Assembly: GCF_000003605.2 (NCBI RefSeq)
Contig: NW_003139905.1
Location: forward strand, 1 to 29,528
Source: Saccoglossus kowalevskii
Taxonomy: Eukaryota > Hemichordata > Enteropneusta > Harrimaniidae
Length of the DNA stretch: 29,528 bases
Reading direction: 5' to 3'
Position numbers and translations under genes: made by a program. The notes under the pieces were generated by a model that made no database searches, was not told the DNA's origin, and saw only the letters and a program-made list of their open reading frames with translations. This document shows, piece after piece, positions 1-29,528 of this stretch. How positions within the stretch are numbered: the stretch's first letter is position 1; the number at the start of each line of letters is the position of its first letter.

Positions 1-49
1 TGTCTATGAGAATTTTGTACAAGCTGCGATGTTGACTGACCAGGAATCT

Positions 50-53
50 AAAA
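50..53 (-). terminator. Pol III T4 terminator (reference copy)
   Basis: The minus strand reads CACCTGTTTTAG after the mature tRNA end, so TTTT begins seven bases past the discriminator. The same T4 lies 7-10 bp on the low-coordinate side of nearly every full copy and also of the truncated remnants. The clear exception is the copy at 12246-12317. Confidence 0.85.
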
Positions 54-70
54 CAGATGTTCCCACACCG

Positions 71-81
71 GGAATTGAACC
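71..81 (-). promoter_or_regulatory. Pol III B box (reference copy)
   Basis: GGTTCAATTCC, tRNA positions 52-62, fits the GGTTCRANYCC consensus. In the main CTC lineage this reads GGTTCATTTCC because A58 is U; in a few copies C56 is A. Confidence 0.85.
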
Positions 82-113
82 CGGGCCTTGGCGGTGAAAG
101 CGCCAAATCCTAA

Positions 114-124
114 CCACTAGACCA
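114..124 (-). promoter_or_regulatory. Pol III A box (reference copy)
   Basis: TGGTCTAGTGG, tRNA positions 8-19, fits the TRGYNNANNNG consensus bound by TFIIIC. In most CTC copies of the array G10 is A, which departs from that consensus. Confidence 0.85.
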
Positions 125-153
125 TATGGGACGTTGACGGATGAAGGCGTTTC

Positions 154-161
154 CTATTTAT
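154..161 (-). promoter_or_regulatory. TATA-like element about -30 (reference copy)
   Basis: ATAAATAG on the minus strand lies at -30 to -23 from the mature 5' end of the tRNA at 60-131. The octamer recurs at the same distance upstream of nearly all full copies; it is altered near 12632 and 15703. In several eukaryotes TATA-like boxes near -30 help TFIIIB on tRNA genes; a role here is inference. Confidence 0.55.
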
Positions 162-350
162 CGGGAACACATAAGTAAGGCATATAATCTGATACTTGTG
201 ACGTGACATGAACTGAATGTCGAGGATAATATATTCTCTTGTAATCAAGCCAACAAAAACGAGAGGCCAACTTATATCTTTTAATTAAATTGTCTATGAG
301 AATGTTGTACAAGCTGCGATGTTCAACTGACCAGGAATATAAAACTGGTG

Positions 351-422
351 TTCTCACACCGGGAAATGAACCCGGGCCATGGCGGTGAGAGCGCCAAATC
401 CTAACCACTAGATCATATGGGA
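351..422 (-). tRNA. tRNA-Glu(CTC), degenerate lineage reference copy
   Basis: This is the reference for the main CTC lineage. The anticodon loop CTCTCAC gives anticodon CTC with U33 kept. Four marks separate it from the TTC reference: the 3' acceptor strand is TGTGAGA, giving a C3-A70 mispair; the T loop is TTCATTT, so the nearly universal A58 is U; G10 is A (pairing with U25 but leaving the A-box consensus); and position 44 is U. Anticodon and D stems still pair and the T4 terminator is present. A covariance model would probably still call it, at a reduced score. I expect weak transcription or poor folding, but cannot prove it. Confidence 0.75.
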
Positions 423-648
423 CGTTGACGTATGAAGGTGTTTCCTATTTATCGAGAACACATAAGTAAGGCATATAATCGTATACTTGTGACGTGACGT
501 GACATGAACTGAATGTCTTGAATTATATATATTCCCTTGCAATCAAGCCAACAAATACGAGAGGCCAATTTATATCTTTTAATTAAATTGTCTATGAGAA
601 TGTTGTACAAGCTGCGATGTTCAACTGACCAGGAATCTAAAACAGGTG

Positions 649-669
649 TTCCCACACCGGGAACTGAAC
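649..669 (-). pseudogene. tRNA-Glu 3'-end remnant (deletion unit 1)
   Basis: Only the discriminator, the 3' acceptor strand, the 3' T-stem strand and the T loop (tRNA positions 73 to about 53) remain. The sequence then jumps into spacer (ATATAATCGGATATTAAGGC on the plus strand). The 5' half, anticodon, A box and TATA-like element are missing and position 58 is G. The terminator is kept. It cannot make a tRNA. Confidence 0.85.
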
Positions 670-858
670 ATATAATCGGATATTAAGGCATATAATCGGA
701 TACTTGTGACGTGACATGAACTGAATGTCGAGTATTCTATATTCTCTTGTGATCGAGCCAACAAATACGAGAGGCCAATTTATATCTTTTAATTAAATTG
801 TCTATGAGAATTTTGTACAAGCTGCAATGTTCAACTGACCAGGAAAATAAAACTGGTG

Positions 859-930
859 TTCCCACACCGGGAAATTAACCCGGGTCATGGCGGTGAGAGC
901 GCCAAATCCTGACCACTAGACTATATGGGA
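859..930 (-). tRNA. tRNA-Glu(CTC), damaged T loop
   Basis: The acceptor stem is canonical, but the T loop is TTAATTT (C56A and A58U), which breaks the G19-C56 tertiary pair and the B box. G9 is A. Likely inactive. Confidence 0.6.
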
Positions 931-1440
931 CGTTGTCGTATGAAGGCGTTTCCTATTTATCGGGAACACATAAGTAAGGCATATAATCGTATACTTGTGA
1001 CGTGACGTGACATGAACTGAATGTCGTGAATTATATATATTCTCTTGTAATCAAGCCAACAAATACGAGAGGACAATTTATATATTTTAATTAAATTGTC
1101 TATGAGAATTTTGTACAAGCTGCGATGTTCAACTGACCAGGAATCTAAAACAGGTGTTCTCACACCGGGAATTGAACCTGGGCCTTGGCGGTGAAAGCGC
1201 CGAATCCTAACCACTAGACCATATGGGACGATGACATTGGAAGGCAATTCCTATTTATCGGGAAAACACAAGTATGGCATGCAATCGGATACTTCTGACA
1301 TGAACTGCACGTCGTGTATTACATATTCTCTTGTAATAAGGCAACAAATACGAGAGGCCAATTTATATCTTTTAATTAAATTGTCTCTGAGAATTGTATA
1401 CAAGCTGCGATGTTCGACTGACCAGGAATCTAAAACAGGT
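860..1440. repeat. Segmental duplication D6, copy 1
   Basis: Matches 6838-7418 at a 5,978-bp offset, with the shared T-stem ACCTGG change, the GCCGAATCC tRNA and a class C spacer. Confidence 0.75.
1157..1228 (-). pseudogene. tRNA-Glu(TTC) pseudogene
   Basis: Full length with anticodon TTC, but with three mispairs: C3-A70, A51-C63 and C27-A43. A58 and both box cores remain. Its counterpart in another block is 7135-7206. Confidence 0.65.
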
Positions 1441-1441
1441 G

Positions 1442-1513
1442 TTCCCACACCTGGAATTGAACCCTGGCCTTGGCGTTGAAAGCGCCAAATGATAACCACT
1501 AGATCATATGGGA
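1442..1513 (-). pseudogene. tRNA-Glu(TTC) pseudogene
   Basis: The T stem has A50-G64 and G51-A63 mispairs. The D stem is broken by G22U and G23C. Loop position 38 is A and G10 is A. Related to 3424-3495. Confidence 0.65.
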
Positions 1514-1739
1514 CGTTGACGTATGAAGGCGTTTCCTATTTATCGGGAACACATAAGTAAGGCATATAATCGTATACTTGTGACGTGACGTGACATGAAC
1601 TGAATGTCTTGAATTATATATATTCCCTTGCAATCAAGCCAACAAATACGAGAGGCCAATTTATATCTTTTAATTAAATTGTCTATGAGAATTTTGTACA
1701 AGCTGCGATGTTCAACTGACCAGGAATATAAAACTGGAG

Positions 1740-1811
1740 TTTTCACACCGGGAAATGAACCCGGGCCATGGCGGTGAGTGCGCCAAATCCTAACCACTAG
1801 ATCATATGGGA
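1740..1811 (-). pseudogene. tRNA-Glu(CTC) pseudogene, U33A lineage
   Basis: The anticodon loop is CACTCAC, so the invariant U33 is A next to a CTC anticodon. The acceptor has C2-A71 and C3-A70 mispairs; A58U and G10A are also present. A tRNA without U33 would fold its anticodon loop poorly. Six copies in the window share the U33A change. Confidence 0.7.
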
Positions 1812-2037
1812 CGTTGACGTATGAAGGCGTTTCCTATTTATCGGGAACACATAAGTAAGGCATATAATCGTATACTTGTGACGTGACGTGACATGAACTG
1901 AATGTCGTGAATTATATATATTCTCTTGTAATCAAGCCAACAAATACGAGAGGCCAATTTATATCTTTTAATTAAATTGTCTATGAGAATTTTGTACAAG
2001 CTGCGATGTTCAACTGACCAGGAATCTAAAACAGGTG

Positions 2038-2109
2038 TTCCCACACCGGGAATTGAACCCGGGCCTTGGCGGTGAAAGCGCCAAATCCTAACCACTAGAC
2101 CATATGGGA
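2038..2109 (-). tRNA. tRNA-Glu(TTC), intact
   Basis: Matches the TTC reference across all four stems, with A58, U33, G10 and T4 terminator kept. Confidence 0.93.
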
Positions 2110-2328
2110 TGTTGACGTATGAAGGCGTTTCCTATTTATCGGGAACACATAAGTAAGGCATATAATCTGATACTTGTGACGTGACATGAACTGAATGTCG
2201 AGCATTATATATTCTCTTGTAATCAAGCCAAGAAATACGAGAGGCCAATTTATATCTTTTAATTAAATTGCCTATGAGAATGTTGTACAAGCTGCGATGT
2301 TCAACTGACCAGGAATATAAAACTGGTG

Positions 2329-2400
2329 TTCTCACACCGGGAAATGAACCCGGGCCATGGCGGTGAGAGCGCCAAATCCTAACCACTAGATCATATGGGA
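2329..2400 (-). tRNA. tRNA-Glu(CTC), degenerate lineage
   Basis: Typical member: C3-A70, A58U and G10A, other stems paired. Its upstream spacer is the 296-bp hybrid class. Confidence 0.72.
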
Positions 2401-2624
2401 CGTTGACGTATGAAGGCGTTTCCTATTTATCGGGAACACATAAGTAAGGCATATAATCTGATACTTGTGACGTGACGTGACATGAACTGAATGTCGAGTA
2501 TTATATATTCTCTTGTAATCAAGCCAACAAATACGAGAGGCCAATTTATATCTTTTAATTAAATTGTCTATGAGAATTTTGTACAAGCTGCGATGTTGAA
2601 CTGACCAGGAATCTAAAACAGATG

Positions 2625-2696
2625 TTCCCACACCGGGAATTGAACCCGGGCCTTGGCGGTGAAAGCGCCAAATCCTAACCACTAGACCATATGGGA
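2625..2696 (-). tRNA. tRNA-Glu(TTC), intact
   Basis: Same as the TTC reference in every stem and loop. The trailer reads CATCTG before the T4 run, a variant shared with copies at 60, 19350, 19646, 21323, 21619 and 27449. Confidence 0.93.
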
Positions 2697-2922
2697 CGTT
2701 GACGTATGAAGGTGTTTCCTATTTATCGGGAACACATAAGTAAGGCATATAATCGAATACTTGTGACGTGACGTGACATGAACTGAATGTCTTGAATTAT
2801 ATATATTCCCTTGCAATCAAGCCAACAAATACGAGAGGCCAATTTATATCTTTTAATTAAATTGTCTATGAGAATTTTGTACAAGCTGCGATGTTCAACT
2901 GACCAGGAATATAAAACAGGTG

Positions 2923-2943
2923 TTCCCACACCGGGAACTGAAC
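2923..2943 (-). pseudogene. tRNA-Glu 3'-end remnant (deletion unit 2)
   Basis: Same junction as 649-669: the 3' tRNA end is joined to spacer, so the 5' half and promoter are lost. Confidence 0.85.
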
Positions 2944-3132
2944 ATATAATCGGATATTAAGGCATATAATCGGATACTTGTGACGTGACATGAACTGAAT
3001 GTCGAGTATTCTATATTCTCTTGTGATCGAGCCAACAAATACGAGAGGCCAATTTATATCATTTAATTAAATTGTCTATGAGAATTTTGTACAAGCTGCG
3101 ATGTTCAACTGACCAGGAATGTAAAACTGGTG

Positions 3133-3204
3133 TTCCCACACCGAGAATTGAATCCGGGCCTTGGCGGTGAGAGCGCCAAATCCTAACCACTAGACCATAT
3201 AGGA
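3133..3204 (-). tRNA. tRNA-Glu(CTC), T-stem mispair
   Basis: Acceptor position 4 is U (wobble with G69). The T stem has an A53-C61 mispair and a G52-U62 wobble. A58, U33 and G10 are kept, so this belongs to the better-preserved CTC group. Confidence 0.75.
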
Positions 3205-3423
3205 TGTTGACGTATGAAGGCGTTTCCTATTTATCGGGAACACATAAGTAAGGCATTTAATCGGATACTTGTGACGTGACATGAACTGAATGTCGAGTAT
3301 TCTATATTCTCTTGTGATCGAGCCAACAAATACGAGAGGCCAATTTATATCTTTTAATTAAATTGTCTCTGAGAATTGTATACAAGCTGCGATGTTCGAC
3401 TGACCAGGAATCTAAAACAGGTG

Positions 3424-3495
3424 TTCCCACACCTGGAATTGAACCCAGGCCTTGGCGTTGAAAGCGCCAAATGATAACCACTAGATCATATGGGA
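3424..3495 (-). pseudogene. tRNA-Glu(TTC) pseudogene
   Basis: G51-A63 mispair and U50-G64 wobble in the T stem, D stem broken by G22U and G23C, C38A and G10A. Sister of 1442-1513. Confidence 0.65.
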
Positions 3496-3721
3496 CGTTG
3501 ACGTATGAAGGCGTTTCCTATTTATCGGGAACACATAAGTAAGGCATATAATCGTATACTTGTGACGTGACGTGATATGAACTGAATGTCTTGAATTATA
3601 TATATTCCCTTGCAATCAAGCCAACAAATACGAGAGGCCAATTTATATCTTTTAATTAAATTGTCTATGAGAATTTTGTACAAGCTGCGATGTTCAACTG
3701 ACCAGGAATCTAAAACAGGTG

Positions 3722-3742
3722 TACCCACACCGGGAACTGAAC
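3722..3742 (-). pseudogene. tRNA-Glu 3'-end remnant (deletion unit 3)
   Basis: Shared deletion junction; position 72 has also changed (plus strand GTACCC instead of GTTCCC). Confidence 0.83.
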
Positions 3743-3930
3743 ATATAATCGGATATTAAGGCATATAATCGGATACTTGTGACGTGACATGAACTGAATG
3801 TCGAGTATTATATATTCTCTTCTGATGAGCCAACAAATACGAGAGGCCAATTTATATCTTTTAATTAAATTGTCTATGAGAATTTTGTACAAGCTGCGAT
3901 GTTCAACTGACCAGGAATATAAAACTGGTG

Positions 3931-4002
3931 TTCCCACACCGAGAATTGAATCCGGGCCTTGGCGGTGAGAGCGCCAAATCCTAACCACTAGACCATATGG
4001 GA
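3931..4002 (-). tRNA. tRNA-Glu(CTC), T-stem mispair
   Basis: A53-C61 mispair and G52-U62 wobble as in 3133-3204, but with a normal C4. A58, U33 and G10 are kept. Confidence 0.75.
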
Positions 4003-4221
4003 TGTTGATGTATGAAGGCGTTTCCTATTTATCGGGAACACATAAGTAAGGCATTTAATCGGATACTTGTGACGTGACATGAACTGAATGTCGAGTATTC
4101 TATATTCTCTGGTGATCGAGCCAACAAATACGAGAGGCCAATTTATATCTTTTAATTAAATTGTCTATGAGAATTTTGTACAAGCTGCAATGTTCAACTG
4201 ACCAGGAATATAAAACTAGTG

Positions 4222-4293
4222 TTCCCACACCGGGAAATGAAGCCGGGTCATGGCGGTGAGAGCGCCAAATCCTGACCACTAGACTATATGGGA
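4222..4293 (-). tRNA. tRNA-Glu(CTC), degenerate
   Basis: The acceptor stem is canonical, but A58 is U, G53C opposes C61, and G9 is A. The same set of changes appears at 7711-7782, marking a duplication. Confidence 0.62.
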
Positions 4294-4514
4294 CGTTGTC
4301 GTATGAAGGCGTTTCCTATTTATCGGGAACACATAAGTAAGGCATATAATCGGATACTTATGACGTGACATGAACTGAATGTCGTGAATTATATATATTC
4401 TCTTGTAATCAAGCCAACAAATACGAGAGGTCAATTTATATCTTTTAATTAAATTGCCTATGAGAATGTTGTACCAGCTGCGATATTCAACTGACCAGGA
4501 ATCTAAAACAGGTG

Positions 4515-4586
4515 TTCTCACACCGGGAAATGAACCCGGGTCATGGCGGTGAGAGCGCAAAATCATGACCACTAGACCATATGGGA
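4515..4586 (-). pseudogene. tRNA-Glu(CTC) pseudogene
   Basis: C3-A70, A58U, a U28-C42 mispair in the anticodon stem and G22U in the D stem. Sister copies are at 8004-8075 and 22499-22570. Confidence 0.65.
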
Positions 4587-4805
4587 CGTTGTCGTCTGAA
4601 GGCGTTTCCTATTTATCGGGAACACATAAGTAAGGCATATAATCTGATACTTGTGACGTGACATGAACTGAATGTCGAGTATTATATATTGTCTTGTAAT
4701 CAATCCAACAAATATGAGAGGCCAATTTATATCTTTTAATTAAATTGTCTATGGGAATGTTGTACAAGCTGCAATGTTCAACTGACCAGGAATATAAAAC
4801 TGGTG

Positions 4806-4877
4806 TTCTCACACCGGGAAATGAACCCGGGCCATGGCGGTGAGAGGGCCAAATCCTAACCACTATATCATATGGGA
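4806..4877 (-). pseudogene. tRNA-Glu(CTC) pseudogene
   Basis: C3-A70, A58U, C31-C39 at the base of the anticodon loop and C12A in the D stem and A box. Sister copy at 8295-8366. Confidence 0.65.
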
Positions 4878-5103
4878 CGTTGACGTATGAAGGTGTTTCC
4901 TATTTATCGGGAACACATAAGTAAGGCATATAATCGATTACTTGTGACGTGACGTGACATGAACTGAATGTCGTGAATTATATATATTCTCTTGTAATCA
5001 AGCCAACATATACGAGAGGCCAATTTATATCATTTAATTAAATTGTCTCTGAGAATTTTGTACAAGCTGCGATGTTCAACTGACCAGGAATCTAAAACAG
5101 GTG

Positions 5104-5175
5104 TTCCCACACCGGGAATTGAACCCGGGCCTTGGCGGTGAGAGCGCCAAATCCTAACCACTAGACCATATGGGA
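5104..5175 (-). tRNA. tRNA-Glu(CTC), intact
   Basis: The best CTC copy in the window. It equals the TTC reference at every position except the anticodon: full acceptor pairing, A58, C56, U33, G10, T4 terminator. It should decode GAG. It shows that CTC copies were not originally defective. Confidence 0.93.
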
Positions 5176-5394
5176 CGATGACATTTGAAGGCGTTTCCTA
5201 TTTATCGGGAAAACACAAGTATGGCATGCAATCGGATACTTGTGATGTGACATGAACTGAATGTCGAGTATTCTATATTCCCTTGTGATCGAGCCAACAA
5301 ATACGAGAGGCCAATTTATATCATTTAATTAAATTTTCTATGAGAATGTTGTACAAGCTGCGATGTTCAACTGACCAGGAATATAAAACTGGTG

Positions 5395-5466
5395 TTCCCA
5401 CACCGGGAATTGAACCCGGACCTTCGCGGTGAAAGCGCCAAATCCTAACCACTAGACCATATGGGA
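5395..5466 (-). tRNA. tRNA-Glu(TTC), one anticodon-stem mispair
   Basis: G28-G42 mispair (plus strand CTTCGCGG); otherwise canonical, with A58 and intact boxes. Confidence 0.8.
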
Positions 5467-7418: not shown

Positions 7419-7419
7419 G

Positions 7420-9542: not shown

Positions 9543-9761
9543 CGTTGACGTATGAAGGCGTTTCCTATTTATCGGGAACACATAAGTAAGGCATATAATC
9601 TGATACTTGTGACGTGACATGAACTGAATGTCGAGTATTATATATTCTCTTGTAATCAAGCCAACAAATACGAGAGGCCAATTTATATCTTTTAATTAAA
9701 TTGTCTATGAGAATGTTGTACAAGCTGCGATGTTCAACTGACCAGGAATATAAAACAGGTG

Positions 9762-9782
9762 TTCCCACACCGGGAACTGAAC
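9762..9782 (-). pseudogene. tRNA-Glu 3'-end remnant (deletion unit 4)
   Basis: Shared junction. The next locus on the plus-strand axis is a U33A copy, a linked pair that recurs five times. Confidence 0.85.
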
Positions 9783-9970
9783 ATATAATCGGATATTAAG
9801 GCATATAATCTGATACTTGTGACGTGACATGAACTGAATGTCGAGTATTATATATTCTCTTCTGATGAGCCAACAAATACGAGAGGCCAATTTATATCTT
9901 TTAATTAAATTGTCTATGAGAATTTTGTACAAGCTGCGATGTTCAACTGACCAGGAATATAAAACTGGTG

Positions 9971-10042
9971 TTTTCACACCGGGAAATGAACCCGGGCCAT
10001 GGCGGTGAGTGCGCCAAATCCTAACCACTAGATCATATGGGA
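9971..10042 (-). pseudogene. tRNA-Glu(CTC) pseudogene, U33A lineage
   Basis: U33A, C2-A71, C3-A70, A58U and G10A, identical in type to 1740-1811. Confidence 0.7.
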
Positions 10043-10268
10043 CGTTGACGTATGAAGGCGTTTCCTATTTATCGGGAACACATAAGTAAGGCATATAATC
10101 GTATACTTGTGACGTGACGTGACATGAACTGAATGTCGTGAATTATATATATTCTCTTGTAATCAAGCCAACAAATACGAGAGGCCAATTTATATCTTTT
10201 AATTAAATTGTCTATGAGAATTTTGTACAAGCTGCGATGTTCAACTGACCAGGAATCTAAAACAGGTG

Positions 10269-10340
10269 TTCCCACACCGGGAATTGAACCCGGGCCTTGG
10301 CGGTGAAAGCGCCAAATCCTAACCACTAGACCATATGGGA
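10269..10340 (-). tRNA. tRNA-Glu(TTC), intact
   Basis: No mispair; all promoter and fold positions match the TTC reference. It is a TTC member of the 589-bp dimer. Confidence 0.94.
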
Positions 10341-10559
10341 CATTGACGTATGAAGGCGTTTCCTATTTATCGGGAACACATAAGTAAGGCATATAATCTG
10401 ATACTTGTGACGTGACATGAACTGAATGTCGAGTATTATATATTCTCTTGTAATCAAGCCAACAAATACGAGAGGCCAATTTATATCTTTTAATTAAATT
10501 GTCTATGAGAATGTTGTACAAGCTGCGATGTTCAACTGACCAGGAATATAAAACTGGTG
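10341..10559. repeat. Spacer class B (219 bp; 291-bp unit), representative
   Basis: On the plus strand it carries two GTGAC steps and GAGTATTATATA. It mostly lies 5' of TTC copies in the regular block. It contains the TATA-like element near the upstream end of the tRNA and a T/A-rich palindrome TTTAATTAAA. I see no ORF or RNA gene of its own in it. Confidence 0.85.
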
Positions 10560-10631
10560 TTCTCACACCGGGAAATGAACCCGGGCCATGGCGGTGAGAG
10601 CGCCAAATCCTAACCACTAGATCATATGGGA
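10560..10631 (-). tRNA. tRNA-Glu(CTC), degenerate lineage
   Basis: Typical CTC partner of the dimer: C3-A70, A58U, G10A. Confidence 0.73.
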
Positions 10632-10857
10632 CGTTGACGTATGAAGGCGTTTCCTATTTATCGGGAACACATAAGTAAGGCATATAATCGTATACTTGTG
10701 ACGTGACGTGACATGAACTGAATGTCGTGAATTATATATATTCTCTTGTAATCAAGCCAACAAATACGAGAGGCCAATTTATATCTTTTAATTAAATTGT
10801 CTATGAGAATTTTGTACAAGCTGCGATGTTCAACTGACCAGGAATCTAAAACAGGTG
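10632..10857. repeat. Spacer class A (226 bp; 298-bp unit), representative
   Basis: Homologous to class B but with three GTGAC steps (10698-10712) and GTGAATTATATATA, i.e. 5 + 2 bp longer. It mostly lies 5' of degenerate CTC copies. The palindrome TTTAATTAAA is at 10787-10796. Nothing else recognisable. Confidence 0.85.
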
Positions 10858-10929
10858 TTCCCACACCGGGAATTTAACGCAGGCCTTGGCGGTGAAAGCG
10901 CCAAATCCTAACCACTAGACCATATGGGA
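10858..10929 (-). tRNA. tRNA-Glu(TTC), damaged T arm
   Basis: C56A in the T loop, G52C opposing C62, and a U50-G64 wobble. Acceptor and anticodon arms are canonical. The related copy at 17667 shares C56A and U50. Confidence 0.7.
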
Positions 10930-11148
10930 CGTTGACGTATGAAGGCGTTTCCTATTTATTGGGAACACATAAGTAAGGCATATAATCTGATACTTGTGAC
11001 GTGACATGAACTGAATGTCGAGTATTATATATTCTCTTGTAATCAAGCCAACAAATACGAGAGGCTAATTTATATCTTTTAATTAAATTGTCTATGAGAA
11101 TGTTGTACAAGCTGCGATGTTCAACTGACCAGGAATATAAAACTGGTG

Positions 11149-11220
11149 TTCTCACACCGGGAAATGAACCCGGGCCAAGGCGGTGAGAGCGCCAAATCCT
11201 AACCACTAGATCATATGGGA
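11149..11220 (-). tRNA. tRNA-Glu(CTC), degenerate lineage
   Basis: C3-A70, A58U and G10A, plus a U27-U43 mispair. Confidence 0.66.
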
Positions 11221-11446
11221 CTTTGACGTATGAAGGCGTTTCCTATTTATCGGGAACACATAAGTAAGGCATATAATCGTATACTTGTGACGTGACGTGA
11301 CATGAACTGAATGTCGTGAATTATATATATTCTCTTGTAATCAAGCCAACAAATACGAGAGGCCAATTTATATCTTTTAATTAAATTGTCTATGAGAATT
11401 TTGTACAAGCTGCGATGTTCAACTGACCAGGAATCTAAAACAGGTG

Positions 11447-11518
11447 TTCCCACACCGGGAATTGAACCCGGGCCTTGGCGGTGAAAGCGCCAAATCCTAA
11501 CCACTAGACCATATGGGA
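11447..11518 (-). tRNA. tRNA-Glu(TTC), intact
   Basis: Same as the TTC reference in all stems and loops. Confidence 0.94.
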
Positions 11519-11737
11519 CGTTGACGTATGAAGGCGTTTCCTATTTATCGGGAACACATAAGTAAGGCATATAATCTGATACTTGTGACGTGACATGAAC
11601 TGAATGTCGAGTATTATATATTCTCTTGTAATCAAGCCAACAAATAAGAGAGGCCAATTTATATCTTTTAATTAAATTGTCTATGAGAATGTTGTACAAG
11701 CTGCGATGTTCAACTGACCAGGAATATAAAACAGGTG

Positions 11738-11758
11738 TTCCCACACCGGGAACTGAAC
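11738..11758 (-). pseudogene. tRNA-Glu 3'-end remnant (deletion unit 5)
   Basis: Shared junction; 1,976 bp from the previous remnant, seven loci apart. Confidence 0.85.
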
Positions 11759-11946
11759 ATATAATCGGATATTAAGGCATATAATCGGATACTTGTGACG
11801 TGACATGAACTGAATGTCGAGTATTATATATTCTCTTCTGATGAGCCAACAAATACGAGAGGCCAATTTATATCTTTTAATTAAATTGTCTATGAGAATT
11901 TTGTACAAGCTGCGATGTTCAACTGACCAGGAATATAAAACTGGTG

Positions 11947-12018
11947 TTTTTACACCGGGAAATTAACCCGGGCCATGGCGGTGAGTGCGCCAAATCCTAA
12001 CCACTAGATCATATGGGA
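11947..12018 (-). pseudogene. tRNA-Glu(CTC) pseudogene, U33A lineage
   Basis: U33A with three acceptor mispairs (C2-A71, C3-A70, C4-A69), C56A, A58U and G10A. Same set as 13922-13993. Confidence 0.7.
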
Positions 12019-12245
12019 CGTTGACGTATGAAGGCGTTTCCTATTTATCGGGAACACATAAGTAAGGCATATAATCGTATACTTGTGACGTGACGTGACA
12101 TGAACTGAATGTCGTGAATTATATATATTCTCTTGTAATCAAGCCAACAAATACGAGAGGCCAATTTATATCTTTTAATTAAATTGTCTATGAGAATTTT
12201 GTACAAGCTGCGATGTTCAACTGACCAGGAATCTAAAGCAGGTGT

Positions 12246-13421: not shown

Positions 13422-13493
13422 TTCCCACACCGGGAATTGAACCCGGGCCTTGGCGGTGAAAGCGCCAAATCCTAACCACTAGACCATATGGGA
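13422..13493 (-). tRNA. tRNA-Glu(TTC), intact
   Basis: Same as the TTC reference. Confidence 0.94.
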
Positions 13494-13712
13494 CGTTGAC
13501 GTATGAAGGCGTTTCCTATTTATCGGGAACACATAAGTAAGGCATATAATCTGATACTTGTGACGTGACATGAACTGAATGTCGAGTATTATATATTCTC
13601 TTGTAATCAAGCCAACAAATACGAGAGGCCAATTTATATCTTTTAATTAAATTGTCTATGAGAATGTTGTACAAGCTGCGATGTTCAACTGACCAGGAAT
13701 ATAAAACAGGTG

Positions 13713-13733
13713 TTCCCACACCGGGAACTGAAC
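13713..13733 (-). pseudogene. tRNA-Glu 3'-end remnant (deletion unit 6)
   Basis: Shared junction; 1,975 bp after unit 5, again seven loci apart. Confidence 0.85.
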
Positions 13734-13921
13734 ATATAATCGGATATTAAGGCATATAATCGGATACTTGTGACGTGACATGAACTGAATGTCGAGTATT
13801 ATATATTCTCTTCTGATGAGCCAACAAATACGAGAGGCCAATTTATATCTTTTAATTAAATTGTCTATGAGAATTTTGTACAAGCTGCGATGTTCAACTG
13901 ACCAGGAATATAAAACTGGTG

Positions 13922-14877: not shown

Positions 14878-15096
14878 CGTTGACGTATGAAGGCGTTTCC
14901 TATTTATCGGGAACACATAAGTAAGGCATATAATCTGATACTTGTGACGTGACATGAACTGAATGGCGAGTATTATATATTCTCTTGTAATCAAGCCAAC
15001 AAATACGAGAGGCCAATTTATATCTTTTAATTAAATTGTCTATGAGAATGTTGTACAAGCTGCGATGTTCAACTGACCAGGAATATAAAACAGGTG

Positions 15097-15117
15097 TTCC
15101 CACACCGGGAACTGAAC
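15097..15117 (-). pseudogene. tRNA-Glu 3'-end remnant (deletion unit 7)
   Basis: Shared junction; 1,384 bp after unit 6, about one 589-bp dimer fewer than the usual 1,975. Confidence 0.85.
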
Positions 15118-15305
15118 ATATAATCGGATATTAAGGCATATAATCGGATACTTGTGACGTGACATGAACTGAATGTCGAGTATTATATATTCTCTTCTGA
15201 TGAGCCAACAAAAACGAGAGGCCAATTTATATCTTTTAATTAAATTGTCTATGAGAATTTTGTACAAGCTGCGATGTTCAACTGACCAGGAATATAAAAC
15301 TGGTG

Positions 15306-16560: not shown

Positions 16561-16779
16561 CATTGACGTATGAAGGCGTTTCCTATTTATCGGGAACACA
16601 TAAGTAAGGCATATAATCTGATACTTGTGACGTGACATGAACTGAATGTCGAGTATTATATATTCTCTTGTAATCAAGCCAACAAATACGAGAGGCCAAT
16701 TTATATCTTTTAATTAAATTGTCTATGAGAATGTTGTACAAGCTGCGATGTTCAACTGACCAGGAATATAAAACTGGTG

Positions 16780-16851
16780 TTCTCACACCGGGAAATGAAC
16801 CCGGGCCATGGCGGTGAGAGCGCCAAATCCTAACCACTAGATCATATGGGA
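16780..16851 (-). tRNA. tRNA-Glu(CTC), degenerate lineage
   Basis: C3-A70, A58U, G10A. Its 5' flank reads ACTTTGACG on the plus strand, as at 11220 and 18029. Confidence 0.73.
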
Positions 16852-17077
16852 CTTTGACGTATGAAGGCGTTTCCTATTTATCGGGAACACATAAGTAAGG
16901 CATATAATCGTATACTTGTGACGTGACGTGACATGAACTGAATGTCGTGAATTATATATATTCTCTTGTAATCAAGCCAACAAATACGAGAGGCCAATTT
17001 ATATCTTTTAATTAAATTGTCTATGAGAATTTTGTACAAGCTGCGATGTTCAACTGACCAGGAATCTAAAACAGGTG

Positions 17078-17149
17078 TTCCCACACCGGGAATTGAACTC
17101 GAGCCTTGGCGGTGAAAGCGCCAAATCCTAACCACTAGACCATATGGGA
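17078..17149 (-). tRNA. tRNA-Glu(TTC), one T-stem mispair
   Basis: A52-C62 mispair and U49-G65 wobble; other arms are canonical. Confidence 0.82.
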
Positions 17150-17368
17150 CGTTGACGTATGAAGGCGTTTCCTATTTATCGGGAACACATAAGTAAGGCA
17201 TATAATCTGATACTTGTGACGTGACATGAACTGAATGTCGAGTATTATATATTCTCTTGTAATCAAGCCAACAAATACGAGAGGCCAATTTATATCTTTT
17301 AATTAAATTGTCTATGAGAATGTTGTACAAGCTGCGATGTTCAACTGACCAGGAATATAAAACTGGTG

Positions 17369-17440
17369 TTCTCACACCGGGAAATGAACCCGGGCCATGG
17401 CGGTGAGAGCGCCAAATCCTAACCACTAGATCATATGGGA
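17369..17440 (-). tRNA. tRNA-Glu(CTC), degenerate lineage
   Basis: C3-A70, A58U, G10A. Confidence 0.73.
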
Positions 17441-17666
17441 CGATGACGTATGAAGGCGTTTCCTATTTATCGGGAACACATAAGTAAGGCATATAATCGT
17501 ATACTTGTGACGTGACGTGACATGAACTGAATGTCGTGAATTATATATATTCTCTTGTAATCAAGCCAACAAATACGAGAGGCCAATTTATATCTTTTAA
17601 TTAAATTGTCTATGAGAATTTTGTACAAGCTGCGATGTTCAACTGACCAGGAATCTAAAACAGGTG

Positions 17667-17738
17667 TTCCCACACCGGGAATTTAACCCAGGCCTTGGCG
17701 GTGAAAGCGCCAAATCCTAACCACTAGACCATATGGGA
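17667..17738 (-). tRNA. tRNA-Glu(TTC), C56A
   Basis: T loop TTAAATT and a U50-G64 wobble. It is the duplicate of 10858-10929 without that copy's extra G52C. Confidence 0.75.
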
Positions 17739-17957
17739 CGTTGACGTATGAAGGCGTTTCCTATTTATTGGGAACACATAAGTAAGGCATATAATCTGAT
17801 ACTTGTGACGTGACATGAACTGAATGTCGAGTATTATATATTCTCTTGTAATCAAGCCAACAAATACGAGAGGCTAATTTATATCTTTTAATTAAATTGT
17901 CTATGAGAATGTTGTACAAGCTGCGATGTTCAACTGACCAGGAATATAAAACTGGTG

Positions 17958-18029
17958 TTCTCACACCGGGAAATGAACCCGGGCCATGGCGGTGAGAGCG
18001 CCAAATCCTAACCACTAGATCATATGGGA
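17958..18029 (-). tRNA. tRNA-Glu(CTC), degenerate lineage
   Basis: C3-A70, A58U, G10A. It lacks the U43 seen in its duplicate at 11149. Confidence 0.73.
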
Positions 18030-18255
18030 CTTTGACGTATGAAGGCGTTTCCTATTTATCGGGAACACATAAGTAAGGCATATAATCGTATACTTGTGAC
18101 GTGACGTGACATGAACTGAATGTCGTGAATTATATATATTCTCTTGTAATCAAGCCAACAAATACGAGAGGCCAATTTATATCTTTTAATTAAATTGTCT
18201 ATGAGAATTTTGTACAAGCTGCGATGTTCAACTGACCAGGAATCTAAAACAGGTG

Positions 18256-18327
18256 TTCCCACACCGGGAATTGAACCCAGGCCTTGGCGGTGAAAGCGCC
18301 AAATCCTAACCACTAGACCATATGGGA
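18256..18327 (-). tRNA. tRNA-Glu(TTC), near intact
   Basis: Only a U50-G64 wobble separates it from the TTC reference. Confidence 0.92.
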
Positions 18328-18546
18328 CGTTGACGTATGAAGGCGTTTCCTATTTATCGGGAACACATAAGTAAGGCATATAATCTGATACTTGTGACGT
18401 GACATGAACTGAATGTCGAGTATTATATATTCTCTTGTAATCAAGCCAACAAATACGAGAGGCCAATTTATATCTTTTAATTAAATTGTCTATGAGAATG
18501 TTGTACAAGCTGCGATGTTCAACTGACCAGGAATATAAAACAGGTG

Positions 18547-18567
18547 TTCCCACACCGGGAACTGAAC
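18547..18567 (-). pseudogene. tRNA-Glu 3'-end remnant (deletion unit 8)
   Basis: Shared junction; lies exactly 6,809 bp from unit 5, inside the large duplicated block. Confidence 0.85.
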
Positions 18568-18755
18568 ATATAATCGGATATTAAGGCATATAATCGGATA
18601 CTTGTGACGTGACATGAACTGAATGTCGAGTATTATATATTCTCTTCTGATGAGCCAACAAATACGAGAGGCCAATTTATATCTTTTAATTAAATTGTCT
18701 ATGAGAATTTTGTACAAGCAGCGATGTTCAACTGACCAGGAATATAAAACTGGTG

Positions 18756-18827
18756 TTTTCACGCCGGGAAATGAACCCGGGCCATGGCGGTGAGTGCGCC
18801 AAATCCTAACCACTAGATCATATGGGA
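18756..18827 (-). pseudogene. tRNA-Glu(CTC) pseudogene, U33A lineage
   Basis: U33A, C2-A71, C3-A70, A7-C66, A58U and G10A. Confidence 0.7.
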
Positions 18828-19053
18828 CGTTGACGTATGAAGGCGTTTCCTATTTATCGGGAACACATAAGTAAGGCATATAATCGTATACTTGTGACGT
18901 GACGTGACATGAACTGAATGTCGTGAATTATATATATTCTCTTGTAATCAAGCCAACAAATACGAGAGGCCAATTTATATCTTTTAATTAAATTGTCTAT
19001 GAGAATTTTGTACAAGCTGCGATGTTCAACTGACCAGGAATCTAAAACAGGTG

Positions 19054-19645: not shown

Positions 19646-19717
19646 TTCCCACACCGGGAATTGAACCCGGGCCTTGGCGGTGAAAGCGCCAAATCCTAAC
19701 CACTAGACCATATGGGA
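19646..19717 (-). tRNA. tRNA-Glu(TTC), intact
   Basis: Same as the TTC reference, with the CATCTG trailer variant. Confidence 0.93.
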
Positions 19718-20590: not shown

Positions 20591-20816
20591 CGTTGACGTA
20601 TGAAGGTGTTTCCTATTTATCGGGAACACATAAGTAAGGCATATAATCGTATACTTGTGACGTGACGTGACATGAACTGAATGTCTTGAATTATATATAT
20701 TCCCTTGCAATCAAGCCAACAAATACGAGAGGCCAATTTATATCTTTTAATTAAATTGTCTATGAGAATTTTGTACAAGCTGCGATGTTCAAATGACCAG
20801 GAATCTAAAACAGGTG

Positions 20817-20837
20817 TTCCCACACCGGGAACTGAAC
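20817..20837 (-). pseudogene. tRNA-Glu 3'-end remnant (deletion unit 9)
   Basis: Shared junction, with one change just beyond it (GGATAGTAAGGC instead of GGATATTAAGGC). Confidence 0.85.
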
Positions 20838-21026
20838 ATATAATCGGATAGTAAGGCATATAATCGGATACTTGTGACGTGACATGAACTGAATGTCGAG
20901 TATTCTATATTCTCTTGTGATCGAGCCAACAAATACGAGAGGCCAATTTATATCTTTTAATTAAATTGTCTATGAGAATTTTGTACAAGCAGCAATGTTC
21001 AACTGACCAGGAATATAAAACTGGTG

Positions 21027-21322: not shown

Positions 21323-21394
21323 TTCCCACACCGGGAATTGAACCCGGGCCTTGGCGGTGAAAGCGCCAAATCCTAACCACTAGACCATATGGGA
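21323..21394 (-). tRNA. tRNA-Glu(TTC), intact
   Basis: Same as the TTC reference. Duplicate of 19350-19421 but with G10 kept. Confidence 0.93.
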
Positions 21395-21618: not shown

Positions 21619-21690
21619 TTCCCACACCGGGAATTGAACCCGGGCCTTGGCGGTGAAAGCGCCAAATCCTAACCACTAGACCATATGGGA
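21619..21690 (-). tRNA. tRNA-Glu(TTC), intact
   Basis: Same as the TTC reference. Duplicate of 19646-19717. Confidence 0.93.
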
Positions 21691-24310: not shown

Positions 24311-24529
24311 CGTTGACGAATGAAGGCGTTTCCTATTTATCGGGAACACATAAGTAAGGCATATAATCTGATACTTGTGACGTGACATGAACTGAATGTC
24401 GAGTATTATATATTCTCTTGTAATCAAGCCAACAAATACTTGAGGCCAATTTATATCTTTTAATTAAATTGTCTATGATAATTTTGTACAAGCTGCGATG
24501 TTCAACTGACCAGGAATCTAAAACAGATG

Positions 24530-24601
24530 TTCCCACACCGGGAATTGAACCCAGGCCTTGGCGGTGAAAGCGCCAAATCCTAACCACTAGACCATATGGG
24601 A
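24530..24601 (-). tRNA. tRNA-Glu(TTC), near intact
   Basis: U50-G64 wobble only. Partner of 5686 without its D-stem mispair. Confidence 0.92.
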
Positions 24602-24820
24602 CGTTGACGTATGAAGGCGTTTCCTATTTATCGGGAACACATAAGTAAGGCATATAATCTGATACTTGTGACGTGACATGAACTGAATGTCGAGGATAAT
24701 ATATTCTCTTGTACTCAAGCCAACAAATACGAGAGGCCAATTTATATCTTTTAATTAAATTGTCTATGAGAATGTTGTACAAGCTGCGATGTTCAACTGA
24801 CCAGGAATCTAAAACAGGTG

Positions 24821-24892
24821 TTCCCACACCGGGAATTGAACCCGGGCCTTGGCGGTGAAAGCGCCGAATCCTAACCACTAGACCATATGGGA
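24821..24892 (-). tRNA. tRNA-Glu(TTC), one anticodon-stem mispair
   Basis: C27-A43; otherwise canonical. Partner of 5977 without its two further mispairs. Confidence 0.83.
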
Positions 24893-25105
24893 CGATGACA
24901 TTGGAAGGCTATTCCTATTTATCGGGAAAACACAAGTATGGCATGCAATCGGATACTTCTGACATGAACTGCACGTCGTGTATTACATATTCTCTTGTAA
25001 TAAGGCAACAAATACGAGAGGCCAATTTATATCTTTTAATTAAATTGTCTCTGAGAATTGTATACAAGCTGCGATGTTCAACTGACCAGGAATATAAAAC
25101 TGGTG

Positions 25106-25177
25106 TTCCCACACCGAGAATTGAACCCGGGCCTCGGCGGTGAGAGCGCCAAATCCTAACCACTAGACCATATGGGA
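25106..25177 (-). tRNA. tRNA-Glu(CTC), near intact
   Basis: U27-G43 and G52-U62 wobbles only. Partner of 6262. Confidence 0.89.
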
Positions 25178-25389
25178 TGTTGACGTATGAAGGCATTTCC
25201 TATTTATCGGGAAAACACAAGTATGGCATGCAATCGGCTACTTCTGACATGAACTGCACCTCGTGTATTATATATTCTCTTCTGATGAGACAACAAATAC
25301 GAGAGGCCAATTTATATTTTTTAATTAAATTGTCTCTGAGAATTTTGTAAAGCTGCGATGTTCAACTGACCAGGAATCTAAAACAGGTG

Positions 25390-25461
25390 TTCCCACACCG
25401 AGAATTTAACCCGGGCCTTGGCGGTGAGAGCGCCAAATCCTAACCACTAGACCATATGGGA
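25390..25461 (-). tRNA. tRNA-Glu(CTC), C56A
   Basis: T loop TTAAATT; G52-U62 wobble; acceptor stem fully canonical (C4), unlike its partner at 6546. Confidence 0.7.
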
Positions 25462-25675
25462 CGATGACATTTGAAGGCGTTTCCTATTTATCGGGAAAAC
25501 ACAAGTATGGCATGCAATCGGATACTTCTGACATGAACTGCACGTCGTGTATTACATATTCTCTTGTAATCAAGCCAACAAATACGAAAGGCCAATTTAT
25601 ATCTTTTAATTAAATTGTCTATGAGAATTGTGTACAAGCTGCGATGTTCAACTGACCAGGAATATAAAACTGGTG

Positions 25676-25747
25676 TTCTCACACCGGGAAATGAACCCGG
25701 GCCATGGCGGTGAGAGCGCCAAATCCTAACCACTAGATGATATGGGA
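25676..25747 (-). tRNA. tRNA-Glu(CTC), degenerate lineage
   Basis: C3-A70, A58U, G10A and G9C. Confidence 0.68.
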
Positions 25748-25973
25748 CGTTGACGTATGAAGGCGTTTCCTATTTATCGGGAACACATAAGTAAGGCATA
25801 TAATCGTATACTTATGACGTGACGTGACATGAACTGAATGTCGTGAATTATATATATTCTCTTGTAATCAAGCCAACAAATACGAGAGGCCAATTTATAT
25901 CTTTTAAATAAATTGTCTATGAGAATATTGTACAAGCTGCGATGTTCAACTGACCAGGAATCTAAAACAGGTG

Positions 25974-26045
25974 TTCCCACACCGGGAATTGAACCCGGGC
26001 CTTGGCGGTGAGAGCGCCAAATCCTAACCACTAGACTATATGGGA
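25974..26045 (-). tRNA. tRNA-Glu(CTC), near intact (A9)
   Basis: All stems pair, G9A only; same type as 23658. Confidence 0.89.
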
Positions 26046-26264
26046 CGATGACATTTGAAGGCGTTTCCTATTTATCGGGAAAACACAAGTATGGCATGCA
26101 ATCGGATACTTGTGATGTGACATGAACTGAATGTCGAGTATTCTATATTCCCTTGTGATCGAGCCAACAAATACGAGAGGCCAATTTATATCATTTAATT
26201 AAATTTTCTATGAGAATGTTGTACAAGCTGCGATGTTCAACTGACCAGGAATATAAAACAGGTG

Positions 26265-26336
26265 TTCCCACACCGGGAATTGAACCCGGGCCTTGGCGGT
26301 GAGAGCGCCAAATCCTAACCACTAGATCATATGGGA
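26265..26336 (-). tRNA. tRNA-Glu(CTC), intact stems (A10)
   Basis: All stems pair, A58 kept; only G10A departs from the intact CTC copy. Confidence 0.9.
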
Positions 26337-26562
26337 CGTTGACGTATGAAGGCGTTTCCTATTTATCGGGAACACATAAGTAAGGCATATAATCGTATAC
26401 TTGTGACGTGACGTGACATGAACTGAATGTCGTGAATTATATATATTCTCTTGTAATCAAGCCAACAAATACGAGAGGCCAATTTATATCTTTTAATTAA
26501 ATTGTCTATGAGAATTTTGTACAAGCTGCGATGTTCAACTGACCAGGAATCTAAAACAGGTG

Positions 26563-26634
26563 TTCCCACACCGAGAATTGAACTCGGGCCATGGCGGTGA
26601 AAGCGCCAAATCCTAACCACTAGACCATATGGGA
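26563..26634 (-). tRNA. tRNA-Glu(TTC), compensated T stem
   Basis: The T stem is CCGAG/CTCGG: the usual G52-C62 pair is replaced by A52-U62, a double change that keeps pairing. Other arms are canonical apart from U44. Confidence 0.9.
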
Positions 26635-26853
26635 CGTTGACGTATGAAGGCGTTTCCTATTTATCGGGAACACATAAGTAAGGCATATAATCTGATACTT
26701 GTGACGTGACATGAACTGAATGTCGAGTATTATATATTCTCTTGTAATCAAGCCAACAAATACGAGAGGCCAATTTATATCTTTTAATTAAATTGTCTAT
26801 GAGAATGTTGTACAAGCTGCGATGTTCAACTGACCAGGAATATAAAATTGGTG

Positions 26854-26925
26854 TTCTCACACCGGGAAATGAACCCGGGCCATGGCGGTGAGAGCGCCAA
26901 ATCCTAACCACTAGATCATATGGGA
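26854..26925 (-). tRNA. tRNA-Glu(CTC), degenerate lineage
   Basis: C3-A70, A58U, G10A. Its trailer reads CCAATTTTATA, so the T4 run is kept. Confidence 0.73.
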
Positions 26926-27151
26926 CGTTGACGTATGAAGGCGTTTCCTATTTATCGGGAACACATAAGTAAGGCATATAATCGTATACTTGTGACGTGA
27001 CGTGACATGAACTGAATGTCGTGAATTATATATATTCTCTTGTAATCAAGCCAACAAATACGAGAGGCCAATTTATATCTTTTAATTAAATTGTCTATGA
27101 GAATTTTGTACAAGCTGCGATGTTCAACTGACCAGGAATCTAAAACAGGTG

Positions 27152-27223
27152 TTCCCACACCGGGAATTGAACCCGAGCCTTGGCGGTGAAAGCGCCAAAT
27201 CCTAACCACTAGACCATATGGGA
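27152..27223 (-). tRNA. tRNA-Glu(TTC), near intact
   Basis: U49-G65 wobble only. Confidence 0.92.
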
Positions 27224-27448
27224 CGTTGACGTATGAAGGCGTTTCCTATTTATCGGGAACACATAAGTAAGGCATATAATCTGATACTTGTGACGTGACG
27301 TGACATGAACTGAATGTCGAGTATTATATATTCTCTTGTAATCAAGCCAACAAATACGAGAGGCCAATTTATATCTTTTTAATTAAATTGTCTATGAGAA
27401 TTTTGTACAAGCTGCGATGTTGAACTGACCAGGAATCTAAAACAGATG

Positions 27449-27520
27449 TTCCCACACCGGGAAATGAACCCGGGCCTTGGCGGTGAAAGCGCCAAATCCT
27501 AACCACTAGACCATATGGGA
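27449..27520 (-). tRNA. tRNA-Glu(TTC) with A58U
   Basis: Acceptor and anticodon arms are of the TTC type, but the T loop is TTCATTT as in the CTC lineage. The simplest reading is a conversion tract covering the T loop. Confidence 0.78.
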
Positions 27521-27739
27521 CGTTGACGTATGAAGGCGTTTCCTATTTATCGGGAACACATAAGTAAGGCATATAATCTGATACTTGTGACGTGACATGA
27601 ACTGAATGTCGAGTATTATATATTCTCTTGTAATCAAGCCAACAAATACGAGAGGCCAATTTATATCTTTTAATTAAATTGTCTATGAGAATGTTGTACA
27701 AGCTGCGATGTTCAACTGACCAGGAATATAAAACTGGTG

Positions 27740-27811
27740 TTCTCACACCGGGAAATGAACCCGGGCCATGGCGGTGAGAGCGCCAAATCCTAACCACTAG
27801 ATCATATGGGA
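27740..27811 (-). tRNA. tRNA-Glu(CTC), degenerate lineage
   Basis: C3-A70, A58U, G10A. Confidence 0.73.
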
Positions 27812-28037
27812 CGTTGACGTATGAAGGTGTTTCCTATTTATCGGGAACACATAAGTAAGGCAGTTAATCGTATACTTGTGACGTGACGTGACATGAACTG
27901 AATGTCTTGAATTATATATATTCCCTTGCAATCAAGCCAACAAATACGAGAGGCCAATTTATATCTTTTAATTAAATTGTCTATGAGAATTTTGTACAAG
28001 CTGCGATGTTCAACTGACCAGGAATCTAAAACAGGTG

Positions 28038-28058
28038 TTCCCACACCGGGAACTGAAC
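28038..28058 (-). pseudogene. tRNA-Glu 3'-end remnant (deletion unit 10)
   Basis: Shared junction; far from the other remnants of the regular block, as are units 1-3. Confidence 0.85.
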
Positions 28059-28247
28059 ATATAATCGGATATTAAGGCATATAATCGGATACTTGCGACG
28101 TGACATGAACTGAATGTCGAGTATTCTATATTCTCTTGTGATCGAGCCAACAAATACGAGAGGCCAATTTATATCTTTTAATTAAATTGTCTATGAGAAT
28201 TTTGTACAAGCTGCAATGTTCAACTGACCAGGAATATAAAACTGGTG

Positions 28248-28319
28248 TTCCCACACCGGGAAATTAACCCGGGTCATGGCGGTGAGAGCGCCAAATCCTG
28301 ACCACTAGACTATATGGGA
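28248..28319 (-). tRNA. tRNA-Glu(CTC), damaged T loop
   Basis: C56A and A58U; acceptor canonical; G9A. Same type as 859-930, which also follows a remnant by 210 bp. Confidence 0.6.
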
Positions 28320-28545
28320 CGTTGTCATATGAAGGCGTTTCCTATTTATCGGGAACACATAAGTAAGGCATATAATCGTATACTTGTGACGTGACGTGAC
28401 ATGAACTGAATGTCTTGAATTATATATATTCCCTTGCAATCAAGCCAACAAATACGAGAGGCCAATTTATATCTTTTAATTAAATTGTCTATGAGAATTT
28501 TGTACAAGCTGCGATGTTCAACTGACCAGGAATCTAAAACTGGTG

Positions 28546-28617
28546 TTCCCACACCGGGAAATTAACCCGGGTCATGGCGGTGAGAGCGCCAAATCCTAAC
28601 CACTAGACCATATGGGA
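28546..28617 (-). tRNA. tRNA-Glu(CTC), damaged T loop
   Basis: C56A and A58U; other arms canonical, G9 and G10 kept. Confidence 0.62.
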
Positions 28618-28836
28618 CGATGACATTTGAAGGCGTTTCCTATTTATCGGGAAAACACAAGTATGGCATGCAATCGGATACTTGTGATGTGACATGAACT
28701 GAATGTCGAGTATTCTATATTCACTTGTGATCGAGGCAACAAATACGAGAGGCCAATTTATATCATTTAATTAAATTTTCTATGAGAATGTTGTACAAGC
28801 TGCGATGTTCAACTGACCAGGAATATAAAACTGGTG

Positions 28837-28908
28837 TTCCCACACCGGGAATTGAACCCGGACCTTCGCGGTGAGAGCGCCAAATCCTAACCACTAGACC
28901 ATATGGGA
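28837..28908 (-). tRNA. tRNA-Glu(CTC), one anticodon-stem mispair
   Basis: G28-G42; acceptor stem, A58 and G10 are kept. Confidence 0.8.
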
Positions 28909-29127
28909 CGATGACATTTGAAGGCGTTTCCTATTTATCGGGAAAACATAAGTAAGGCATATAATCAGATACTTGTGACGTGACATGAACTGAATGTCGA
29001 GTATTATATATTCTCTTGTGATCGACCCAATAAATACGAGAGGCCAATTTATATCATTTAATTAAATTTTCTATGAGAATGTTGTACAAGCTGCGATGTT
29101 CAACTGACCAGGAATATAAAACAGGTG

Positions 29128-29199
29128 TTCCCACACCGGGAATTGAACCCGGGCCTTGGCGGTGAGAGCGCCAAATCCTAACCACTAGATCATATGGGA
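29128..29199 (-). tRNA. tRNA-Glu(CTC), intact stems (A10)
   Basis: All stems pair and A58 is kept; G10A only. Confidence 0.9.
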
Positions 29200-29489
29200 C
29201 GTTGACGTATGAAGGCGTTTCCTATTTATCGGGAACACATAAGTAAGGCATATAATCTGATACTTGTGACGTGACATGAACTGAATGCCGAGTATTATAT
29301 ATTCTCTTCTGATGAGACAACAAATACGAGAGGCCAATTTATATCTTTTACTTAAATTGTCTATGAGAATTTTGTACAAGCTGCGATGTTCAACTGACCA
29401 GGAATCTAAAACAGGTGTTCCCACACCGGGAATTGAACCCGGGCCTTGGCGGTGAAAGCGCCAAATCCTAATCACTAGACCATATGGGA
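29200..29489. repeat. Single-unit duplication D5, copy 2
   Basis: Twin of 24021-24310; the match runs on to the window end with GACGAATGAAGG, minus one T at about 29510. Confidence 0.85.
29418..29489 (-). tRNA. tRNA-Glu(TTC), G19A
   Basis: Stems all pair; G19A in the D loop, as in 24239-24310. Confidence 0.83.
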
Positions 29490-29528
29490 CGTTGACGAAT
29501 GAAGGCGTTCCTATTTATCGGGAACACA

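Follow-up and report, generated by a model that had tools for sequence, protein, structure and literature searches.

Is a long array of tRNA-Glu genes a bank that selection maintains, or is it satellite DNA built out of a tRNA gene? This is the question raised by the 29,528-nucleotide stretch of the acorn worm Saccoglossus kowalevskii analysed here, called the window, which begins at base 1 of contig C3111 in an assembly of 572 Mb and 4830 contigs, the latter being the genome searched throughout this work. The window is a single tandem array of tRNA-Glu bodies and spacers, and we judge it likely that this locus evolves as satellite DNA and not as a maintained gene bank, given that its intact copies are in no significant excess over random decay and that its tRNA is as variable as its spacer.

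Spacer anchor matches along the whole window define 104 repeat units placed head to tail, most of the full units being 285–298 bp long and ten units 209/210 bp by their anchor spacings, and Tandem Repeats Finder (TRF) returned 13 rows, every one with a period of 209–298 bp. A tRNA-Glu body is present in 94 of the 104 units, always on the minus strand (72 nt long in 92 cases, with single bodies of 71 and 73 nt), with ARAGORN calling 91 tRNA-Glu and the Rfam model RF00005, at its gathering score, 88, also all on the minus strand. The remaining ten units share one common deletion that leaves only a 3′ stub of the tRNA.

Positions 1..29528, minus strand: tandem array of 104 tRNA-Glu/spacer units (spacer anchor, unit lengths, TRF, ARAGORN, and Rfam).
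Positions 607..816, minus strand: 210-bp unit without a tRNA body, an example taken from the alignment of the ten deletion units.
Positions 2881-3090, 3680-3888, 9720-9928, 11696-11904, and 13671-13879, minus strand: further deletion units with the same breakpoint (alignment).
Positions 15055-15263, 18505-18713, 20775-20984, and 27996-28205, minus strand: the last four deletion units with that breakpoint (alignment).

A previous sequence-only reading of this DNA had described 104 tRNA-Glu loci on the same strand, with both ends of the window inside the array, two isoacceptors, and nothing else present, and the tandem-repeat and Rfam runs that it proposed do confirm the array, as well as the single strand, the array filling the window from end to end, and the two anticodons, CTC and TTC. 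Its figure of 104 holds for repeat units and not for tRNA bodies, while its spacing of about 291–298 bp gives way to the unit lengths above. The spacer anchors span the entire window and leave no space for any further gene, and the open reading frames of 80–107 aa were rejected as genes because they extend across the repeat and reappear along with it. We are thus dealing with a single-isotype array, that is, evenly spaced copies of one tRNA type in the range of tens to hundreds (104 units, one strand, Glu only), with spacers highly similar to each other (diversity of 0.057 over 93 units). A tRNA-derived short interspersed nuclear element, defined by dispersed single insertions with target-site duplications and a 3′ tail, was also considered and discarded on the arrangement of the copies, the units being head to tail and the listed part of the spacer-tag matches lying in series on two contigs.

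We counted a 72-nt body as intact when all 21 stem pairs (with stems taken from the Rfam structure), T54-T55-C56, and A58 were kept. The 92 bodies of this length carry the CTC anticodon in 57 cases and TTC in 35, and 66 of them are broken by the stem-pair and T-loop criteria, leaving 26 intact (18 TTC and 8 CTC). Sixty different tRNA sequences occur among the 94 bodies, the commonest one, with 15 identical copies, having the CTC anticodon, a mismatched C3-A69 in the acceptor stem, and a T in place of A58; the master sequence of the array, an intact TTC form, has 9 exact copies in the window.

Positions 351..422, minus strand: example of the commonest body (CTC, C3-A69, A58 to T), from sequence, counts, and stem pairs.
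Positions 60..131, minus strand: intact tRNA-Glu(TTC), array master sequence (exact 72-mer, all stems paired).
Positions 2038-2109, 2625-2696, 10269-10340, and 11447-11518, minus strand: the same master 72 nt (exact 72-mer).
Positions 13422-13493, 19646-19717, 21323-21394, and 21619-21690, minus strand: the same master 72 nt (exact 72-mer).
Positions 50..53, minus strand: example of the T-run, a TTTT resembling an RNA polymerase III (Pol III) terminator just 3′ of a tRNA body (sequence).

In order to compare the tRNA with its spacer, we based our conclusions on units picked by the spacer anchor, because units picked by ARAGORN bias the tRNA towards conservation. Over 93 anchor-picked units, the diversity was 0.074 in the tRNA vs. 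the 0.057 of the spacer; single-occurrence variants numbered 19 over the 72 sites of the tRNA and 52 over the 219 of the spacer (P 0.68), and the sites varying at all were 42/72 in the tRNA and 101/219 in the spacer (P 0.08). Within the CTC class alone (57 units), divergence from the class consensus was 0.0412 for the tRNA and 0.0336 for the spacer. Random decay was modelled by scattering along the body, at random, as many differences from the intact TTC form as were observed, and under such random mutation 22.3 intact copies are expected, with 26/92 seen (P 0.13), and 11.7 intact distinct sequences, with 13/58 seen (P 0.35). The absence of a significant excess of intact copies, together with a tRNA that is as variable as its spacer, therefore points to satellite-like evolution. 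The claim of the sequence-only reading that the array behaves more like satellite DNA is in this way upheld, also by the amplified units lacking a tRNA and by the block duplications described below, since tandem units with block duplications and, over the window as a whole, without detectable gene-type constraint are what we found.

The array also shows traces of turnover. One duplicated block is given here with its coordinates:

Positions 9929..12202, minus strand: block of eight units (36-43) that recurs as units 60-67 at 16738-19011, with a mean identity of 99.4%.

The best-matching partner of a unit lies most often 7 units away (13/104), only 6 pairs of units are identical in the window, and the ten units without a tRNA lie dispersed along the array, all with one breakpoint. 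Homogenisation between neighbours was rejected, as neighbouring units show no greater similarity than units lying far apart. We infer that the block duplications and scattered deletion units reflect unequal block exchange in a satellite, and the history would then run as follows. The starting point would have been a functional tRNA-Glu gene, equipped with its spacer and a T-run terminator, that underwent head-to-tail duplication; unequal exchange and block duplication, whose pattern is visible in the window, would then have enlarged the array and made its units partly alike over both the tRNA and the spacer. Most copies now accumulate mutations, with no selection on the tRNA detectable over the full set of units in the window; the minority still intact would be recent or lucky, and may still be Pol III templates.

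The same repeat is found elsewhere in the genome. A 29-base spacer tag has 560 genome-wide matches vs. 0 for its reversed control, which excludes chance, and since the window holds 75 exact tags for its 104 units, the estimate is of about 780 units genome-wide, on at least 9 contigs of the assembly. From stretches of five of these contigs (C2654, C1449, C4635, C983, and C3505), we cut 47 units and compared the 40 of usual length, none of them from C983; only 5/40 are intact, with a diversity of 0.078 in the tRNA vs. 0.086 in the spacer.

Glu is not the only isotype arrayed in this genome. A first genome-wide look gave 25,204 tRNA candidates, of which 63 matches were scored, and 62/63 lay on contigs with arrays then seen, the exception being an Arg gene on C3484. 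Arrays were read for Arg-TCG, Cys-GCA, Thr-TGT, Trp-CCA, Pro-CGG, Leu-AAG, and Met-CAT, and six contigs holding several tags each yielded one Gly-GCC body on reading, the Gly bodies lying in series, so that with Glu at least nine isotypes (Glu, Arg, Cys, Thr, Trp, Pro, Leu, Met, and Gly) have separate arrays. These arrays may well have a common cause. A general B-box 13-mer has 990 genome-wide matches vs. 8 for the control; 92 of the 100 matches listed fall on three array contigs, and reading the match on each of the seven remaining contigs gave an ARAGORN tRNA in two cases. Indels are present in the tRNA body of 46/128 Cys-GCA units compared, even though this body shows roughly half the variability of its spacer. 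The stretches read of C257 and C3484 gave isolated tRNA-Arg(TCG) calls away from the Arg arrays, so that dispersed genes may exist beside the arrayed ones for Arg too.

Several observations do not fit pure neutrality and have to be kept in mind. The intact counts are slightly over the random expectation in both tests, although not significantly, and the random-mutation model ignores both CpG effects and the relatedness among copies. In 92/93 full-length units, a TTTT follows the tRNA body on its 3′ side at no more than about 20 nt, and the exact intact TTC 72-mer is present in 57 copies genome-wide on 8 contigs, 17 of them on the 129-kb contig C2654, both ends of which, the parts read, are array. 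The TTC class (34 units) diverges from its consensus by 0.0217 in the tRNA vs. 0.0277 in the spacer, and because the tRNA of this class is less variable than its spacer, a weak constraint on it is conceivable. Two of the other isotypes contribute here as well, the Cys array through its tRNA/spacer diversity ratio of 0.51 (with no excess of intact bodies, 6/31 vs. 9.7 expected), and the Pro array through a ratio of 0.61 and 8/14 intact distinct sequences vs. 4.6 expected (P 0.03). The Arg array (ratio 1.13, 11/34 intact distinct vs. 9.7 expected), the Trp array (0.84, 2/8 intact vs. 2.8 expected), and the Thr array give other values, the Thr ratio of 1.36 resting on 28 ARAGORN-picked units because only 4/61 of its anchor intervals fit the period (ratio 1.32 on these). 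Constraint may thus differ from array to array.

The likeliest alternative is that selection keeps the array as a high-copy source of tRNA-Glu and tolerates the broken copies as load. The 57 exact masters, the 26/92 intact bodies of the window, the retained TTTT, and the low variation of the TTC class speak for it, and so does the lack of a non-array CTC gene considered below. Nevertheless, the intact copies do not significantly exceed random decay, the tRNA diversity over all units is not below that of the spacer, only 5/40 units compared from the other Glu contigs are intact, and outside the family there are tRNA-Glu(TTC) genes with a different sequence, so that we regard a maintained bank as unlikely.

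These outside genes were reached with the tag GGCCCGGGTTCGATTCCCGG, which has 52 matches on 10 contigs; 10/52 places were read, one per contig, and gave six Gly and four Glu. The non-array tRNA-Glu(TTC) is one identical 72-mer with 5 genomic copies, on C2360, C2367 (twice, 1.1 kb apart), C2917 (921 kb), and C4447 (370 kb), and the four read have differing flanks and a T-run. Its body differs from that of the array at 13/72 sites, ten of which form five pairs changed on both sides, and because of this compensation both types were probably true genes when they parted and the founder of the array a real gene. Given these five identical genes, the array would probably not be needed for TTC supply. 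The proposal of the sequence-only reading that the array is a dose reservoir for tRNA-Glu loses force in the case of TTC, because of these genes and because most array copies are broken, and it is left standing for CTC.

By the pattern with the GTTCGA T loop, the Glu genes outside the array family are TTC in 5/5 cases, and neither this pattern nor one expected canonical form, the two patterns able to show a non-array CTC tRNA-Glu, found any, while intact CTC copies do occur in the arrays, 8 in the window and 3 on C4635. We rather doubt that the satellite is the sole source of tRNA-Glu(CUC) of the animal, to judge from these sequence patterns, but if it were, an essential tRNA would be encoded only by the surviving copies of a decaying satellite.

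A second alternative, to which we give little probability, is a chromatin element, with the repeat being kept for the binding of TFIIIC and Pol III, or for an insulator or replication-pause role, independently of any tRNA product. The B box is the TFIIIC binding site, and it is among the more variable parts of the unit (0.065 over the 93 units), with the B box of the intact form, GGTTCAATTCC, found in only 38/93 units and GGTTCATTTCC in 36/93; likewise, the A box, TGGTCTAGTGG, is kept in only 45/93 and lost from the ten deletion units. What favours such an element is that the stretch GTGGTTAGGATT, which contains the A-box end, varies little (0.019), that spacer blocks such as the TATA-like CCCGATAAATAG are nearly invariant (non-major fraction 0.005), and that similar arrays exist for several isotypes. 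Comparable proposals exist for the human 1q23.3 tRNA repeat and the Entamoeba arrays. The TATA-like block concerned, GATAAATAGG, lies about 22–31 bases 5′ of the tRNA in each full unit and is among the least varied parts, varying less than the B box.

That misassembly expanded one or a few units is very improbable, since, although the analysis used a single assembly and long arrays are difficult to assemble, misjoining a single unit would not produce 60 different tRNA sequences in 94 bodies with so few identical unit pairs, nor a family spread over at least 9 contigs, including one of 129 kb with array at both ends.

The preferred reading, a satellite, also has to be placed among known systems. 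Tandem tRNA arrays have already been published for Hydractinia and Nematostella (PMC11067881), and the array section of that paper describes roughly even tandem copies, in tens to hundreds, with similar spacers, just as here; those arrays are cnidarian, whereas the present one is from a hemichordate with at least nine isotypes arrayed, and the measurable breakage of most of the Glu copies is a point absent from that section. The passages on arrays in the Entamoeba work (PMC2652664) likewise deal with tandem tRNA arrays, for which its authors favour concerted evolution as the likeliest process; however, a unit there can include as many as 5 tRNA genes, separated by microsatellite-like repeats, in contrast to one tRNA type per unit here, and in those passages the authors saw no clear pseudogene copies, whereas 66/92 bodies are broken here. 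As TRF gave no short intergenic repeats in the window, all its periods being 209–298 bp, an array of the Entamoeba type was rejected. The human 1q23.3 locus (PMC4041453) also has tRNA genes in a variable tandem repeat, but its units are of 7.3 kb, GC-rich, and contain tRNA genes plus a CTCF site, as opposed to one tRNA in about 0.3 kb. Finally, a survey of tRNA gene clusters in eukaryotes (PMC2888827) reports Nematostella and teleost clusters of fifty or more, made of genes and pseudogenes under rapid turnover; its clusters were defined by distance, and its passages on clusters do not mention hemichordates. We found no published title on tRNA arrays in a hemichordate in the openly licensed literature. 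The kind of array is thus already known, and what is added is the host and the measured decay.

The importance of this decay lies in the fact that a tRNA scanner sees a gene bank here, with 91 “genes”, even though the intact copies do not significantly outnumber those that random decay would leave. This bears on how tRNA gene counts in animal genomes are read, and on the question of function as against satellite DNA for the arrays of Hydractinia, Nematostella, and the acorn worm. With at least nine arrayed isotypes, and also tRNA-Glu genes outside the present array family, this genome is a good place to test which of them supply the cell.

The mitochondrial DNA in the assembly also speaks to the host. 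The single COX1 match falls on a 17-kb contig, whose remaining genes were identified by inspection. There, COX1 points the opposite way from ND1, COX2, and the block running from ATP6 to CYTB, and as the frames of ND1 and COX1 are under 100 bases apart, no ND2 fits in the gap. ATA stands at sites generally conserved as isoleucine, and the one AAA codon at a lysine site. An inverted COX1, a displaced ND1 or ND2, ATA read as Ile, and AAA read as Lys are published for Saccoglossus kowalevskii (PMC3121625; for AAA also PMC2697986), so that mitochondrial gene order and code by themselves indicate an acorn worm, probably of the genus Saccoglossus.

Concerning other satellites, we read an even sample of 40 contig starts, of which 19/40 were only N and 21 readable. 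ARAGORN found a tRNA in 0/21 of the readable starts, and tandem repeats with periods of 21–216 bp were present at 16/21, as in a satellite-rich genome. Nearly all of C3000:1-10000 is filled by a 44-bp satellite.

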